Shown here: piece by piece, positions 16,701 through 20,895 of the stretch | Numbering within the stretch: the first letter of the stretch is position 1 | Layout of the letters: every line of letters begins with the position of its first letter | Source: a virus | IMG/VR virus record: IMGVR_UViG_3300005515_000057 | Span: 1 to 23,577 of that record | DNA length: 23,577 nt | Strand: one strand, 5' to 3' | The notes under the pieces: generated by a model | What the model was told of the DNA's origin: nothing | The model's input: only the letters and a program-made list of their open reading frames with translations | Databases searched by the model: none | Translations under genes and position numbers: made by a program

Positions 16701-17047
16701 GCGGCGCCGGCGGCACCGTAGGCCTGCACCTGCCCGGCGGTGCTGGCCAGCTTCCCGTCCAGAGCCCCCAGCGATGCCAGAATCTCCGCATTGGTCCGGT
16801 TGAGCGTCTGCAGCTCTTCAATGACCGCGCCCGTTCCGGTGCCGATACGGTCAAGGGCGCCGCCGAGCCGGTCACCAAGAACACTGGAGGAGCGCTCAAC
16901 CGTCCTTGCCAGCGCCTGGTAGTCCCGGTCCAGACGATCAGCAGCCCCACCGGCGCGTTCAGCGGCCGCCGCGTTCTCGTCCAGCGCCTTCGTGCCTTCG
17001 ACCAGGCCACTACTGTCGACCTTGTAGCCAAGCTCGGCGATATCCAT
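13700..17047 (-). CDS. H: tape measure protein
   Basis: 1115 residues; AGGAG six bases before the ATG. The N-terminal 280 residues are Ala/Gln/Glu-rich helix, probably coiled coil. Residues about 288-385 hold the conserved tape-measure segment (SARQLQNNLRMVPMQVTDIT, then GQPAWMVAIQQGGQLKDQFG) and two hydrophobic stretches (GGYVIGLVNPLTIAAAALTA, 345-364). The C-terminus has the lambda GpH-type domain at about 890-966 (WEDAWVQFAKTGKLSFKDLA). At the family rule of about 0.15 nm per residue the tail would be near 165 nm, which is an estimate. The protein is exported through the tail at infection. No frameshift is seen. Confidence 0.96.
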   Translation of the reverse strand: MDIAELGYKVDSSGLVEGTKALDENAAAAERAGGAADRLDRDYQALARTVERSSSVLGDRLGGALDRIGTGTGAVIEELQTLNRTNAEILASLGALDGKLASTAGQVQAYGAAGAAAAASTAQVATASQQLEQQLSQQEARYKAVAQQAMAWTQSNQAANLSERALAEAARDAALGIDHKARAMASAGSEQERLAARAKALQEAEARTANEQRQAAAAAEAQKINLQQLLGQIDPTVAALNRLAAMEDRLERAQKAGLVNASVFDQYQTKIEGMRTSVLNATNAQNGMGMSARQLQNNLRMVPMQVTDITTSLISGQPAWMVAIQQGGQLKDQFGGIGPAARAVGGYVIGLVNPLTIAAAALTAMALAAKQSQDELFQFQKQLILSGQGAVIGVDGFEALATSIDRLDGVSRGGAVTALTETAKAGRFAGEQFELVAAAAARMEASTGRAASATVSAFQSIAKGPVEGLLKLNDAERFLTAAQLARITALEEEGRTQQAANEAIQLYATHLDEVANRTEAVMPGMSKWWRDLKDDIGGAWSAIGNVTGAITDLAKEWGILARLPRLSDMLGLGAVGGTLVKNLGLPSLTEALNGLSTRMRGMPRMPTPIDEGGALDPQTARELAAASQERATAEQTASEAINAQIAGLDRAMAKEAARLKIIAQYNRLADNDARHFDGSMQRLIAKAQADVDRTFNRREGVGKRNADDTAAQTMLANAQRQIEANKQLVDTGVKVTESERLAAKIKQELDDKTKTMTASTRALLVAEREQLLTSGKKAAAYQKEREATEALARQQAILNQASSNRDRANELDLMGMGKGGDAVAMLRRQLDIQREYQDELKRLGSRDVAKDKETWDLMAANAASFRDQELAKERVFQEARLAMLGDWRAGARRAWEDYAFAANNAMENASSLMNTALSGWEDAWVQFAKTGKLSFKDLANSIVADLARIAAKQAAVGIINAVASAWGGGGGTSMSTYGAQSFGNNTGWLNEGVNFGGGRAMGGPVRGSTLYEVGEGGRPELFDDGSGRTYLIPGNDGRVIPAAPAASAGASAGGGAAVHVQVIVNSDGTTETNGDTSLMQQFGQELGRFVESKYRELQLKDMRPGGALHMAGARR

Positions 17048-17061
17048 CAGGGGCTCCTGTT

Positions 17062-17415
17062 CTACTGCTGCTGTGCCCGCTCACGCGCGGCTTTCTGGTC
17101 TTCGCGCACCGCGCGGAGGTACTGGTCATCCATCGCCAGGAGCATCTGCACCTCCTCTGGCAGGAGGTCGATCTGCAGCAGGCGACTCCATTCGCCCACG
17201 TCAGCAAACGTCAACGCCTCCGGACCGCTGTGTCGGCGGCCGGAGAGCTGCCAGAACCAGTCCCAGACGTGGGTAATCGCGTCCGGGACGTCCAGCTCTG
17301 GCGACTTGGCCTCGAAGCGCTCGTTGCGCTGACGCCGGGTTTCGCCGTTCTCATCCGCCATGTCGTAGCGGACGGCAATGTAGGTGGCCTCAGCCGCCTG
17401 CTTCAGCAGGTCCGC
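17062..17415 (-). CDS. T: T segment of the tail assembly chaperone G-T (made by frameshift)
   Basis: This frame has no ATG/GTG/TTG before the internal ATG at 17361, yet is open and protein-like upstream of it (ADLLKQAAEATYIAVRYDMA), back to a stop at about 17440. The natural product is a G-T fusion of about 239 residues: 122 from G, then 117 from this segment after a +1 slip at TTCTTTC (17422-17416). The segment has a Trp-rich core (ITHVWDWFWQLSGRRHSG) and a charged C-terminus (REDQKAARERAQQQ). In lambda, G and G-T coat the tape measure and recruit tail-tube subunits. The ATG at 17361 alone would give 99 residues, and separate initiation is less likely. Confidence 0.78.
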   Translation of the reverse strand, partial: ADLLKQAAEATYIAVRYDMADENGETRRQRNERFEAKSPELDVPDAITHVWDWFWQLSGRRHSGPEALTFADVGEWSRLLQIDLLPEEVQMLLAMDDQYLRAVREDQKAARERAQQQ

Positions 17416-17782
17416 GAAAGAACGCCGGACGGTCGTTCAGCGCTGCGTCGGCCTGTTCCCCCACCCACGGCAGCTCCTTCAGCAGGGTCTTGAGGGTCTG
17501 CTGGTCGAACGCAGGCTTCTCGCCATGGAAGGTCAGCTCCCCCTTCCACTCCCAGCCACTGATCGACGCGGCCAGCATCGACAAGCGCACGGCCTCCAGC
17601 TGCTCGGCCGTCACCTTGCCGCGGTGGCCCATGCGCTCGTTGAGCGTCTTGCGGGAAGCGGCCTTCACCTGCGGATGGCTGTCGGGCAACAGGATGAGCA
17701 CCAGGCCTACCGGCTCTTCGGTGGCCGGGTGCAGGATTTCCAGACGGCGTTCTGCCGCCACGATGTTGGTCAGTTCGGTCAT
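17390..17782 (-). CDS. G: tail assembly chaperone G
   Basis: 130 residues, with AAGGA eight bases before the ATG. It lies between the tail tube and tape-measure genes, the fixed place of the G gene, and has the size of lambda gpG. It begins MTELTNIVAAERRLEILHPA and contains WEWKGELTFHGEKPAFDQQT, a pattern common in siphophage tail chaperones. It ends FFRGPAEAGG and overlaps the T frame by 26 bases beyond the proposed slip site. Most ribosomes should make G, and a minority the G-T fusion. Confidence 0.86.
   Translation of the reverse strand: MTELTNIVAAERRLEILHPATEEPVGLVLILLPDSHPQVKAASRKTLNERMGHRGKVTAEQLEAVRLSMLAASISGWEWKGELTFHGEKPAFDQQTLKTLLKELPWVGEQADAALNDRPAFFRGPAEAGG
17416..17422 (-). other. 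putative programmed +1 frameshift site (TTC TTT C)
   Basis: In the G frame the codons read GCG TTC TTT CGC. A single Phe tRNA can move from TTT to the overlapping TTC, changing the next codon from CGC to GCG and entering the T frame. The allowed window is bounded by a T-frame stop at about 17440 and the G stop at 17390. No lambda-like GGGAAAG heptamer lies in the overlap; the needed shift is +1 (or -2), not -1. Confidence 0.55.
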
Positions 17783-17812
17783 GTCGTGATCCTTGTTGCG
17801 ATCCGAGAAGGA

Positions 17813-17871
17813 ACCGGCGGGGAAGCTGTCGGATCAGGCAGCCTTTCAGGCGCGCGCCCTACCCCGCCGGT
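17813..17871 (-). other. 10-bp inverted repeat between tail tube and G genes
   Basis: ACCGGCGGGG (17813-17822) and CCCCGCCGGT (17862-17871) are perfect complements 39 bp apart in the 95-bp spacer. On the transcript this makes a long-loop hairpin between the highly expressed tube gene and G. Without a T-run it is more likely an mRNA-stability or attenuation element than a full terminator. Confidence 0.45.
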
Positions 17872-17877
17872 ATTCGG

Positions 17878-18348
17878 TTACGGGGTGACGGGAGCCGGCA
17901 CCACCACCGGGGGCTGGTTGAGGCCCAGGACGTAGGTGTTGAGCACGAAGTCCTCATTGCGGCCGCCCGGGGTGTTCGGACCGGCCACCAGGCCGCGCAG
18001 GTACTCGATGGAGCCGTCCGCACGCTCGACCTTGAAGGCGTAGGCGTCCGGGACGTCGGGCGCACCAGCGGCACGCATGGCGATCTGGCCCGGGTCGGTC
18101 AGATCCTCGGCCACTTCCACCGGAGGGTCACCGGCATTGGTGATGCCCTTGCCCTTCAGGGCCACCAGCGTGTCCCAGGTGTCGTAGGTGACGATGTTGG
18201 TGTTGATGCCGCGCTCACCGACGCTGCCGACCTTCTTTACCTGAATATATGCCAGCGCTGCGAATTCGGTGGCGGTGAGGTCTTCGTTCTGGGGGGTAAC
18301 GCAGATGAACAACTTGGAACCTGCGTTGGTCTTTGCTTCAGCGGCCAT
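17878..18348 (-). CDS. V: major tail tube protein
   Basis: 156 residues, with GAGGAG nine bases before the ATG at 18348. It begins MAAEAKTNAGSKLFICVTPQ and has a beta-rich body (YIQVKKVGSVGERG, then NIVTYDTWDTLVALKGKGIT) of the type found in lambda/HK97 tail tube proteins, which stack as hexamer rings around the tape measure. Its place directly before G, G-T and the tape measure supports this. The C-terminus ends in a Pro/Val-rich tail (PPVVVPAPVTP). The gene symbol is by analogy with lambda. Two tandem terminators lie directly upstream. Confidence 0.85.
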   Translation of the reverse strand: MAAEAKTNAGSKLFICVTPQNEDLTATEFAALAYIQVKKVGSVGERGINTNIVTYDTWDTLVALKGKGITNAGDPPVEVAEDLTDPGQIAMRAAGAPDVPDAYAFKVERADGSIEYLRGLVAGPNTPGGRNEDFVLNTYVLGLNQPPVVVPAPVTP

Positions 18349-18374
18349 AGCCGTGGTCTCCTCGCGATGGGCGT

Positions 18375-18399
18375 AAAAAAACCCGCCACGGGGCGGGGT
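18375..18399 (-). terminator. second of two tandem terminators before the tail tube gene
   Basis: On the minus strand a CCCGCC/GGCGGG stem (18397-18392 with 18387-18382) is followed by seven T. It lies 27 bp before the tail tube ATG, within the late operon, and only 11 bases beyond the first terminator. Confidence 0.82.
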
Positions 18400-18410
18400 C
18401 GTTGAAAAGC

Positions 18411-18435
18411 AAAAGACCCGCTGGTTGGCGGGTCT
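18411..18435 (-). terminator. first of two tandem terminators, after the repeat-protein gene
   Basis: On the minus strand AGACCCGC (18435-18428), a 6-nt loop and GCGGGTCT (18421-18414) are followed by TTTGCTTTTC. It lies 23 bp past the stop of the repeat-protein gene (18459), so it would end that gene's transcript before the tail tube gene. Confidence 0.82.
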
Positions 18436-18458
18436 CCGTTGATCTTGTATAGGCTCGT

Positions 18459-18710
18459 TTAGTTCGAACCGTCACCGATGTAGGTGCCGTCCGGACACAT
18501 AATCGGCTTACCCCCGACAAACGTGCCGTCCGGTGCCATTGTTGGGCGCCCACCGACAAATTTTCCATTCGGAGCAAGTTGTGGCGTGCCCGAAACAAAC
18601 GTGCCTTCAGGCGTCATCTGAATCGCCCCTTGGCCTACGAAGGTGCCATCGGGTGCCAACTGCGGATTGCCAAAAACGAAAGTTCCATCTGGTGCAAGTC
18701 GAACGCTCAT
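18459..18710 (-). CDS. small protein made of six 13-residue repeats
   Basis: 83 residues; AAAGGA lies about eight bases before the ATG at 18710. After MSVR the whole protein is six copies of a 13-14-residue unit with consensus (L/M)-A-P-D-G-T-F-V-G-G-x-P-x. Examples are LAPDGTFVFGNPQ, MTPEGTFVSGTPQ and MAPDGTFVGGKPI, ending MCPDGTYIGDGSN. The units differ widely at synonymous positions, so the pattern is kept by selection rather than recent duplication. PDGT turns and F-V strands suggest a small beta-solenoid or hairpin ladder. The family is unrecognised. It lies between the 80-residue gene and two tandem terminators, like a moron in the structural operon. A virion-decoration or host-interaction role is possible, not shown. 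Confidence 0.75.
   Translation of the reverse strand: MSVRLAPDGTFVFGNPQLAPDGTFVGQGAIQMTPEGTFVSGTPQLAPNGKFVGGRPTMAPDGTFVGGKPIMCPDGTYIGDGSN
18471..18698 (-). repeat. six degenerate 39-42-bp coding repeats
   Basis: The repeats encode the six (L/M)xPDGTFVGGxPx units. The unit length is 39 bp, with one unit of 42 bp (LAPDGTFVGQGAIQ). Codons for the same residues vary between units, for example GAT/GAC for Asp and ACT/ACC/ACG for Thr. Confidence 0.75.
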
Positions 18711-18743
18711 GACTACTTCCTTTCTGCTGGGTAATCGTCAGGC

Positions 18744-18986
18744 CTACTTCGCCGTGGGTCCAAGCTTGGCCGCCACCAGTTTCAGCGCTTCGGCTGGCTT
18801 GAAACCAGCTCGGATGTACTCCTCATACTCGTTGCGGACCCAGACGGCCTGCTCCTTGTTGAACTCGTACATCAGGCTGCGGGATGCCTTCATGCGGTCG
18901 ACGGAATCGCGCAGCTCTTTCAACGCTCCCTCGCTGAGGGGGCCATCGCTTCGCACCAGGTGCAGGTTGGGCGTCTTGGGGCTCAT
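18744..18986 (-). CDS. small hypothetical protein in the tail operon
   Basis: 80 residues from the ATG at 18986 (MSPKTPNLHLVRSDGPLSEG); the longer frame upstream overlaps the tail terminator gene and is rejected. It is mostly helical and charged (ALKELRDSVDRMKASRSLMY, then EYEEYIRAGFKPAEALKLVA). The last part, 'AGFKPAEALKLVAAKLG', resembles a short helix-turn segment common in small phage proteins. It follows the tail terminator gene by 10 bases and precedes the repeat-protein gene. Function is unknown; a structural or tail-assembly role follows only from position. Confidence 0.65.
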   Translation of the reverse strand: MSPKTPNLHLVRSDGPLSEGALKELRDSVDRMKASRSLMYEFNKEQAVWVRNEYEEYIRAGFKPAEALKLVAAKLGPTAK

Positions 18987-18996
18987 GGGCCGGAGT

Positions 18997-19407
18997 CTAC
19001 CCCGAAACGAAACCCCTCCACCGGATGGTGACCGGGTGCATGACCCGCTCCGGATCCTGAATGATGCTGCTGGTGGAGGGCCGCTCGTAGACAGCCATGC
19101 CGCCGAAGCGGGTGCCCTTGGCGAACGCAGCGATGATGGCATCCGTGATGGGCGTGCCCACCATGATCCCCTTCCCCGGCCGGTAGCAGGCTGCCAGCTG
19201 GCCGAACCCCTGCATCAGGGACGGGCCGTCGTCGGCCAGGCCGTAGTTCTGGGTCCGGTTGGGAAACCACTGGAACTCCAACCACCTGGCATCCTTGCCG
19301 GTCGGCGGGGTGAACCCAATTCCGGGATACGAGCAGGGCAGTCCCTGCGCCGCCGCGAATGAAGTGACCAACTTGGTGAAGGCGTCGTAGATCTCGGTGT
19401 CTTTCAT
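18997..19407 (-). CDS. tail terminator-like protein (DUF4128 type)
   Basis: 136 residues from the ATG at 19407, which overlaps the gp10-like stop as ATGA; the longer frame is a shadow. The sequence has the pattern of the phage tail-terminator-like family: MKDTEIYDAFTKLV, PGIGFTPPTGKDARWLEFQW, FPNRTQNYGL, and a GKG segment (YRPGKGIMVG). Such proteins cap the tail tube and join it to the head, like lambda gpU. Position between the gp10-like protein and the tube gene is the expected one. Confidence 0.85.
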   Translation of the reverse strand: MKDTEIYDAFTKLVTSFAAAQGLPCSYPGIGFTPPTGKDARWLEFQWFPNRTQNYGLADDGPSLMQGFGQLAACYRPGKGIMVGTPITDAIIAAFAKGTRFGGMAVYERPSTSSIIQDPERVMHPVTIRWRGFVSG

Positions 19408-19829
19408 CGCATGCGGCTCCTGATCTCGGCGGTGACCTCGGCCACGATGAAGTCCCAGCGCTGCGCCGCCGCCCTGGCAAAGCCCTTGCCGGCCTGCGCA
19501 TAGGTCCTGCCCTTGCTGTCCTCGCCGTAGAACCCGTGCTCCATGCGCATGGCGTACTTCGCGGTCCACCCGGCCCATACCGTCTGGCCCAGGTCCATGC
19601 TTGCAAACACCAGCGGCGGATCCGTCGCGCCACCGGTGGGCATGCCCTCCAGGGAGGCCGCAACCGAGTTACGCAGGAACCCGGTGTCCACTGGCATACG
19701 GCCTCCCATACCCTCCGGCGTGTTGGCCTCCTCCATCAGCCGCTGCGACGATTCGCGGAACACAGCCAACTGCATGCCCTTGGCCTTCTCGGCGAAGGCA
19801 CGGACCTGGCTGCCAAACTTATTGGCCAC
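19404..19829 (-). CDS. HK97 gp10-like tail completion/neck protein
   Basis: 141 residues from a GTG (19829) with GGAGGTG at proper spacing. It carries the family signature PVDTGFLRNSV (46-56), followed later by YAMRMEHGFYGED and a helical C-terminus. HK97 gp10-type proteins, related to lambda gpZ, act at the head-tail joint. It overlaps the Mu-F-like gene by 11 bases and the tail terminator by 4, suggesting translational coupling. Confidence 0.9.
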   Translation of the reverse strand: MANKFGSQVRAFAEKAKGMQLAVFRESSQRLMEEANTPEGMGGRMPVDTGFLRNSVAASLEGMPTGGATDPPLVFASMDLGQTVWAGWTAKYAMRMEHGFYGEDSKGRTYAQAGKGFARAAAQRWDFIVAEVTAEIRSRMR

Positions 19830-20895
19830 GCTGCACCTCCGCTGCCATGTCCACCCGGTAGGTCTTGGTGCACCGGCAGCCGATGGTTTCTTCCGCCGGC
19901 GCCCCGAGCGCGGTGTCGCCCGGGAACCTCATCAGCGCACCGCCCGGCGTCTGGAACGGCTCGCCGAACCGTCGCTTCTGGCCGTTCATCGCCTTGTGGC
20001 TATGCCGCGTGCGGTCATCACCGGTGGCAGACCAGCCGCAGGTGACGTTCTCGGGGGCCAAACGGCCCGATTCGATCTGCTGCCGGTACGCCTCATCGCG
20101 GCCGGCGTTCATTGCCGTCAGCGATTCGGTCCTCGCGATCATTTCGCCGCGCAGCGACAGCAGGCGGTCGGCGTAGCGGCCGGCAATCTTCTCGATGTCC
20201 GCCGCCGCCACCGGCTTGCTGCCCGCGATCGCGCGCTTGACGATACCGTCCAGGCGCTTGTCCCGGCGCTGCCGGTCAAAGTACGCCGCCATCTGTTTGG
20301 GATCGCCGCTGGCCAGCTGCTGCCGCACGTTTGCAACGTACTGCGCCTGCTGTGAAGTCAGGCCCACCACCCCGCCGGCGCGACGTCCGGTTTCGCCTAC
20401 CCGGCCGACGAGCTCCAGCGCGCTCTGGCGCGGATTCTGTCCGGCGGCCATGCCGCGCACCAGGTGCTGCCGCACCATCTGCCGCTGGTCCTCCACGATG
20501 CCAACGATCAGGCGCGACGAGTTCTCCTGCAGCCAGCCTTCAGCGCCACGGTTGCGCATGTCGAATCGGAACCGCAGCGTCGGCGTCTCGACGGCCGGGT
20601 TGTAGCCGCCGCGCACCTGCTGCCGCATCGACAGCCGCGGTAGCTCCTTGATACCGGCATCGCCACCGGCAACGAAGGCCTGCCGCACCGATTCCGCCAT
20701 AGGCGAGAAGGCTTCCGAATCGAAGCCCAACGCCTCCAGGACCATGTCGACCTGGCCAGCGCGCAGCAGCTCTGCCAGGTGATCGACCTGCGCCTGGTTC
20801 CGCATGCCGGCGACTGCCTGCTCGAAGGAGCGGCGGATGGCCGGCTCCAGGCGACGTGCCAGCAGTTCCAGTTCGCGTGGGGTGAGGTAGTCCAT
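19819..20895 (-). CDS. Mu F-like minor head morphogenesis protein
   Basis: 358 residues. Residues about 225-345 resemble the Mu F/SPP1 gp7 minor head domain: MIARTESLTAMNAGRDEAY (252-270), W288, the charged GDDRTRHSHKAMNGQ stretch (292-306) and a final GCRC (339-342). The Cys (286, 340, 342) and His (298, 300) set could bind a metal. The N-terminal half is helical and unrecognised. In many phages this gene follows the portal; here it lies after the capsid and connector genes, next to the gp10-like gene. Its start overlaps the upstream gene as TGATG. Confidence 0.83.
   Translation of the reverse strand: MDYLTPRELELLARRLEPAIRRSFEQAVAGMRNQAQVDHLAELLRAGQVDMVLEALGFDSEAFSPMAESVRQAFVAGGDAGIKELPRLSMRQQVRGGYNPAVETPTLRFRFDMRNRGAEGWLQENSSRLIVGIVEDQRQMVRQHLVRGMAAGQNPRQSALELVGRVGETGRRAGGVVGLTSQQAQYVANVRQQLASGDPKQMAAYFDRQRRDKRLDGIVKRAIAGSKPVAAADIEKIAGRYADRLLSLRGEMIARTESLTAMNAGRDEAYRQQIESGRLAPENVTCGWSATGDDRTRHSHKAMNGQKRRFGEPFQTPGGALMRFPGDTALGAPAEETIGCRCTKTYRVDMAAEVQRGQ

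Follow-up and report, generated by a model that had tools for sequence, protein, structure and literature searches.

The gene located at 18459..18710 on the minus strand of the window (the whole stretch of 23,577 nucleotides analysed here, positions 1 to 23,577 of IMG/VR virus record IMGVR_UViG_3300005515_000057) is very probably a horizontally acquired passenger gene, or moron, lodged in the tail operon, at a slot of variable content. The observations that lead to this reading are the variability of the slot, the presence of other genes at this position in close relatives, a deviant codon composition, purifying selection, and a leaderless phage clade with a member located behind int in phage 186. 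The product is an 83-aa protein for which homologues have been found in phages and bacteria.

The repeat gene starts with ATG, preceded directly by a ribosome site recognised by eye (AAAGGAAG), and the encoded protein is almost wholly built of six PDGTFVGG-type units, described by the motif P[DEN]G[TK][FY][VI], which start at residues 7, 20, 34, 47, 60, and 73. The first-pass annotation of this DNA had described a six-fold 13-residue repeat; the six units are confirmed, but the successive spacings are 13, 14, 13, 13, and 13 residues, so that one unit has 14. The same spacing pattern is seen in the DNA for five copies. Shuffling the residues of the protein gave at most one unit motif in 20,000 shuffles, against the six observed. 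Comparison of the units with each other gives a mean pS of 0.81 and a mean pN of 0.26, in agreement with the earlier proposal that codons have diverged while residues were kept by selection. The span initially attributed to the feature, 18375-18710, is wider than the protein, which takes up only 18459-18710, the remainder including terminators.

The slot is bordered upstream by the tail terminator protein gene (18997..19407, minus strand; phrog_179, E 3.8e-22; PF13554, E 1.1e-18) and downstream by the major tail protein gene (17878..18348, minus strand; PHROG phrog_158, E 2.5e-18). The repeat gene is separated from the tail terminator gene by ORF80 (18744..18986, minus strand), a conserved small gene of 80 aa for which no family match was obtained in PHROGs, Pfam, or PADLOC. 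The repeat gene follows ORF80 after 33 nt, on the same strand and inside the tail operon. Two intrinsic terminators detected by a terminator scan, T1 (18412..18437, minus strand) and T2 (18382..18397, minus strand), precede the major tail protein gene, as had been claimed from the sequence at the outset.

Viral contigs were scanned with both border proteins, resulting in 61 and 25 loci, mostly identical contigs that were counted once. For the comparison, 59 loci were taken, 58 of them with both borders, and 55 distinct intervals were obtained after dropping L060, in which the tail terminator gene is missing, and L070, L096, and L103 (duplicate intervals). Left out were L107, with a major tail protein 82% identical and no tail terminator match, L108 and L110-L113, which lack a border or whose major tail protein does not exceed about 53% identity, and L122, with no major tail gene. 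Eight of the 55 intervals are empty, having only 65-69 nt, and 47 are occupied by ORF80 (present in 33/55), by other short genes, or by both, with the exception of a few occupied intervals of 218-251 nt (L092, L093, L100, L109) that lack a convincing ORF. The largest cargo cluster contains six members of 121-131 aa (L064, L065, L068, L089, L099, L123), with one N-terminal membrane-like segment as judged by eye, and its L123 member has no match in PHROGs, Pfam, or PADLOC. Coiled-coil-like genes, beta-rich genes, two lipoprotein-like genes (all of them labels given by eye), and singletons complete the contents of the slot. PADLOC returned no match for the window protein, ORF80, or eight slot companions, and a single weak match, LmuB, for four further companions. 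A tRNA cargo, suspected from the reading frames, was discarded, with 0 tRNA genes in 13 loci. There is also a second cargo position, upstream of ORF80 and after the tail terminator gene, in L068, L069, L071, L072, L073, and L105, where genes of 121-179 aa, coiled-coil-like by eye, are found.

The repeat gene itself occurs in three of these 55 intervals (L053, L062, and L013), of which L013 (Stenotrophomonas pennii) was fetched because the repeat gene was present. In L053, the cargo was missed in the interval tally due to a longer spurious frame that overlaps it, and the repeat gene was seen in the ORF comparison; this locus is identical to the window and is perhaps the same virus population. 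The copies of L062 and L013 show 65% and 67% identity, respectively. L054 has border proteins that are 97% and 96% identical, yet a different ORF, of 59 aa, occupies the position of the repeat gene. In the 297 genomes of the family to which the S. pennii genome belongs, the major tail gene was found in four and the repeat gene in one, that same genome. Absence from related phages had been regarded beforehand as an argument against the first interpretation of this DNA; the gene is literally absent from most of them, and a moron reading predicts precisely other genes, or nothing, at this place.

Codon composition points in the same direction. The GC3 of the repeat gene is 0.536, versus 0.798-0.876 in the other nine of the ten genes compared, ORF80 (0.815) included, and the copies of L062 and L013 also have a lowish GC3 (0.607 and 0.595). 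Overall GC counts rather against import: that of the repeat gene, 0.560, is low but is equalled or undercut in 67 of 2,333 window stretches of equal length, and the 186 copy is unremarkable in this respect (0.512 versus 0.506 for its locus).

With respect to the terminators, T1 is present in 42 of the 47 occupied intervals, also where ORF80 is the sole gene, and in none of the eight empty ones, whereas T2 is present in all 55, empty ones included. Thus, T1 goes with cargo in general and T2 belongs to the core. Four terminator-like sites were counted in the region 17000-20000, where shuffled sequence gave 1.9 on average (sd 1.3); this number by itself is unremarkable, and what supports T1 and T2 is their conservation in relatives. 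As T2 precedes the major tail gene also in intervals that hold no cargo, late transcription presumably reads through it. A promoter scan limited to the sigma-70 type gave 0 sites in 17000-20000, and the repeat gene could be transcribed solely with the late operon. The typical moron layout with tandem terminators, as first described, is therefore kept in part: T1 tracks cargo, but T2 is also found in empty intervals and no promoter was found.

The closest named relative of the window protein is Orf69 of phage 186 (U32222.1/NC_001317.1), with 66% identity across the full 83 aa. Both proteins have 83 aa and six units, both are leaderless, and both start with MSVR, have a second spacing of 14 residues, and end in GDGS, three features that are shared by five phage or prophage copies (window copy, L062, L013, 186, and L007). 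In a tree of 23 chosen rows, with leaders trimmed, these five copies constitute one clade with support 96/93. The 14-residue spacing and the GDGS end occur in some bacterial members too. Within the clade, pN values are 0.11-0.26 versus pS values of 0.54-0.87, and, judging from these substitutions, the five leaderless copies are under purifying selection.

Unlike the window gene, 186 orf69 is outside the tail operon; its annotated position follows cI and int and immediately precedes attP, in a stretch called the lysogenic operon, and the record gives no function for it. In L007 the order is as in 186, with int 92% and cI 63% identical. A query made of 186 int and orf69 matched 57 of 5,426 E. 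coli genomes (some weakly, and in int only), none of them over 80% of the query, and 137 phage records, over 80% only in the two of 186 itself; the E. coli genomes gave no match to 186 orf69 by megablast or to the L007 copy by blastn. Five relatives were inspected at this place: in two of them, Erwinia phage EtG and Salmonella phage BIS20, no gene is annotated after int, and the remaining three, which are E. coli prophages, have other genes there. Downstream of int in 186-type E. coli prophages, L140 2812-3717 and L141 2822-4069 gave a weak HEPN-like match (in Pfam, below cut-off) and a DzbB-like match (in PADLOC, with E 5.6e-8), respectively, and these genes are candidates for a role in defence on the basis of such similarities. 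For Orf69, PADLOC gave 0 families, and no paper on phage 186 orf69 was found in the open PMC literature.

Beyond this clade, scanning bacterial genomes with the alignment led to 40 loci belonging, by their record titles, to several phyla. According to a hydrophobicity score read by eye, a hydrophobic leader precedes the repeats in 34 of 48 loci, nine are leaderless (the five copies of the phage clade plus L017, L037, L045, and L050), and in five the leader is cut or unclear (L015, L028, L036, L042, and L052). Most relatives in the family carry, then, a putative signal peptide. The bacterial APDGSYVGG-repeat proteins, such as those from Klebsiella ColRNAI plasmids and Caballeronia pSBC2-3, have the same unit, often six times, and differ from the window protein in this hydrophobic leader; where annotated, they are named 'hypothetical protein'. 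A leader-bearing copy also exists in a viral contig of 279 kb for which PHROGs gave matches to a DNA polymerase and an endolysin (L009 4938-5243), which was included in the tree and placed outside the phage group.

Neighbours of the bacterial copies, 106 ORFs in total, were compared all against all; this covered 28 of 45 loci, the other 17 (13 of them with the repeat ORF) having been dropped by an overlap filter, and near neighbours in common were found only for two Klebsiella plasmids, together with one remote pair (L025 and L039). In the Klebsiella plasmid records, leader-bearing copies of six units (L005 2250-2570) and three units (L049 2267-2482) are accompanied by two identical neighbour ORFs, which indicates that the number of units changes quickly. 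A leaderless copy of six units in a Desulfobulbaceae bin (L017 4986-5240) is flanked by nickel hydrogenase genes on one side and by genes for hydrogenase maturation on the other.

Searches in family libraries gave 0 matches for the window protein in NCBIfam and PADLOC, only RsgI_N in Pfam (E 0.036, below cut-off), with no PD40 match, E values of 0.012 and 0.15 in PHROGs, and a best E of 0.13 in a PDB sequence search. In the open PMC literature, no paper on the repeat motif peptides was found. Two apparent relationships were considered and rejected. Orf69 reaches 26.7 bits summed against the WD40-like Pfam family PD40 (cut-off 20.9, E 5.3e-6), but no single stretch passes, the best one having 11 residues, and the score was put down to the short PDG turn. 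The Klebsiella plasmid protein matches phrog_29931 with E 4e-5; the best stretch covers residues 4-36, leader included, and fails alone. By these comparisons, the repeat family has no convincing name in the libraries searched.

Structure prediction with AlphaFold2 gave, for the window protein, one model with a mean pLDDT of 84 and four near 37, and that single model is weak when taken alone. For 186 Orf69, three of the five models exceed 92 (best pLDDT 94) and two have 66 and 46. The strands listed are equal in the models of the two proteins, with two short strands per unit. In Foldseek, no PDB match fell below an E of 0.2, and in VIA-align none reached a Z of 2. The best fold-library matches, all non-significant, were C-LytA choline-binding repeats, fibre shafts (E 3.3), and a duck adenovirus fibre (E 0.21). 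Triple-spiral or hairpin-ladder folds are to be taken as leads only. The models speak for a protein of beta repeats, but not for a solenoid in particular. Of the small beta-solenoid suggested by the first-pass annotation, what stands is the prediction of paired short strands; the solenoid itself is unproven, and no solved structure was matched.

The best explanation for the whole set of data, to which we assign about an even chance, would be that of an imported moron encoding an intracellular protein that helps the prophage, most likely through exclusion. In this proposal, the moron sits between the tail terminator gene, followed by ORF80, on one side and the major tail protein gene on the other, T1 accompanying the cargo, and would give rise to a small protein that lacks a hydrophobic leader and for which a ladder of short beta-strand pairs is predicted. 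This protein would be dispensable for the virion and would act inside the cell, either in the lysogen or in the infected cell, where its binding to a host or phage protein may help the prophage and hinder competing phages. That phage exclusion is the actual function of the repeat protein is put forward more tentatively, as something short of an even chance. The end of a lysogenic operon is a usual place for genes of this kind. Exclusion is preferred because variable prophage loci often hold such genes, as described in excerpts of PMC9122126; exclusion genes of a Pseudomonas prophage appear in excerpts of PMC9936078. On the other side, none of the slot proteins scanned could be assigned a named role in defence, and the copy in the hydrogenase cluster and the many leader-bearing copies suggest functions other than phage exclusion.

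Other explanations have to be weighed against it. The position of the gene inside the tail operon, on the same strand and shortly after ORF80, the failure to find a promoter in 17000-20000, and the occurrence of T2 in empty intervals, according to which late transcription presumably passes such terminators, would all suit an intracellular factor expressed late, read with the tail operon in lytic growth, whose targets would be the host or co-infecting phages and whose action would be confined to the dying cell. However, the 186 homologue stands behind cI and int in the lysogenic operon, and the order in L007 is alike, so this alternative is considered unlikely. A cytoplasmic protein coming from the bacterial family and increasing host fitness (lysogenic conversion), unrelated to phage exclusion, would agree with the existence of bacterial relatives in several phyla, with the leader in 34 of 48 loci, and with Klebsiella plasmids among the carriers; against it, none of the five phage clade copies has a leader, and in the 28 of 45 loci compared no conserved neighbour points to a metabolic role, which makes it rather improbable. 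Decoration of the virion, proposed initially, or a tail accessory role, in which the beta ladder would be fixed on the tail or the capsid, could be sustained by the adjacency of the major tail protein gene and by the non-significant likeness to fibre shafts. Nevertheless, 52 of the 55 intervals keep the same tail genes without the repeat gene, the homologue in 186, an unrelated P2-like phage, is outside the tail operon, behind cI and int, and there are bacterial homologues, all of which make a virion role very unlikely.

Together with the preferred reading of an imported moron that helps the prophage, a broader proposal can be formulated, although it is a doubtful one: there would be an unnamed family of 13-residue PDG-YVGG repeats, with its own small beta-repeat fold, present in several phyla and mostly exported, from which a leaderless clade would have been recruited by unrelated temperate phages for exclusion, moving between at least two cargo slots. 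If this is true, Orf69 of phage 186 becomes a testable type member of the PDG-YVGG repeat family. In any case, phage 186 is a ready laboratory system for testing the function of the repeat protein, and an orphan gene of a model phage has been tied both to a repeat family widespread in bacteria and to the cargo slot of a phage group that is unrelated. Moreover, the slot also holds other small genes without known function, and it is thus a good place to seek new prophage functions.

The gene for gp15 of phage HK97 is placed in the tail operon. This protein is a moron product with superinfection exclusion (Cumby 2012, as cited in excerpts of PMC9936078 and PMC9122126). As in gp15-type morons, the window gene is an extra gene among virion genes, missing from relatives and provided with a terminator; unlike them, no promoter was found for it. 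The likeness proposed concerns gene layout. In P2-like phages, excerpts of PMC9122126 describe a small variable cargo locus with high gene turnover between gpA and gpQ. The slot of the window resembles it in being a small, high-turnover locus between two conserved genes, which, unlike those of the P2-like locus so described, are the tail terminator and major tail protein genes.
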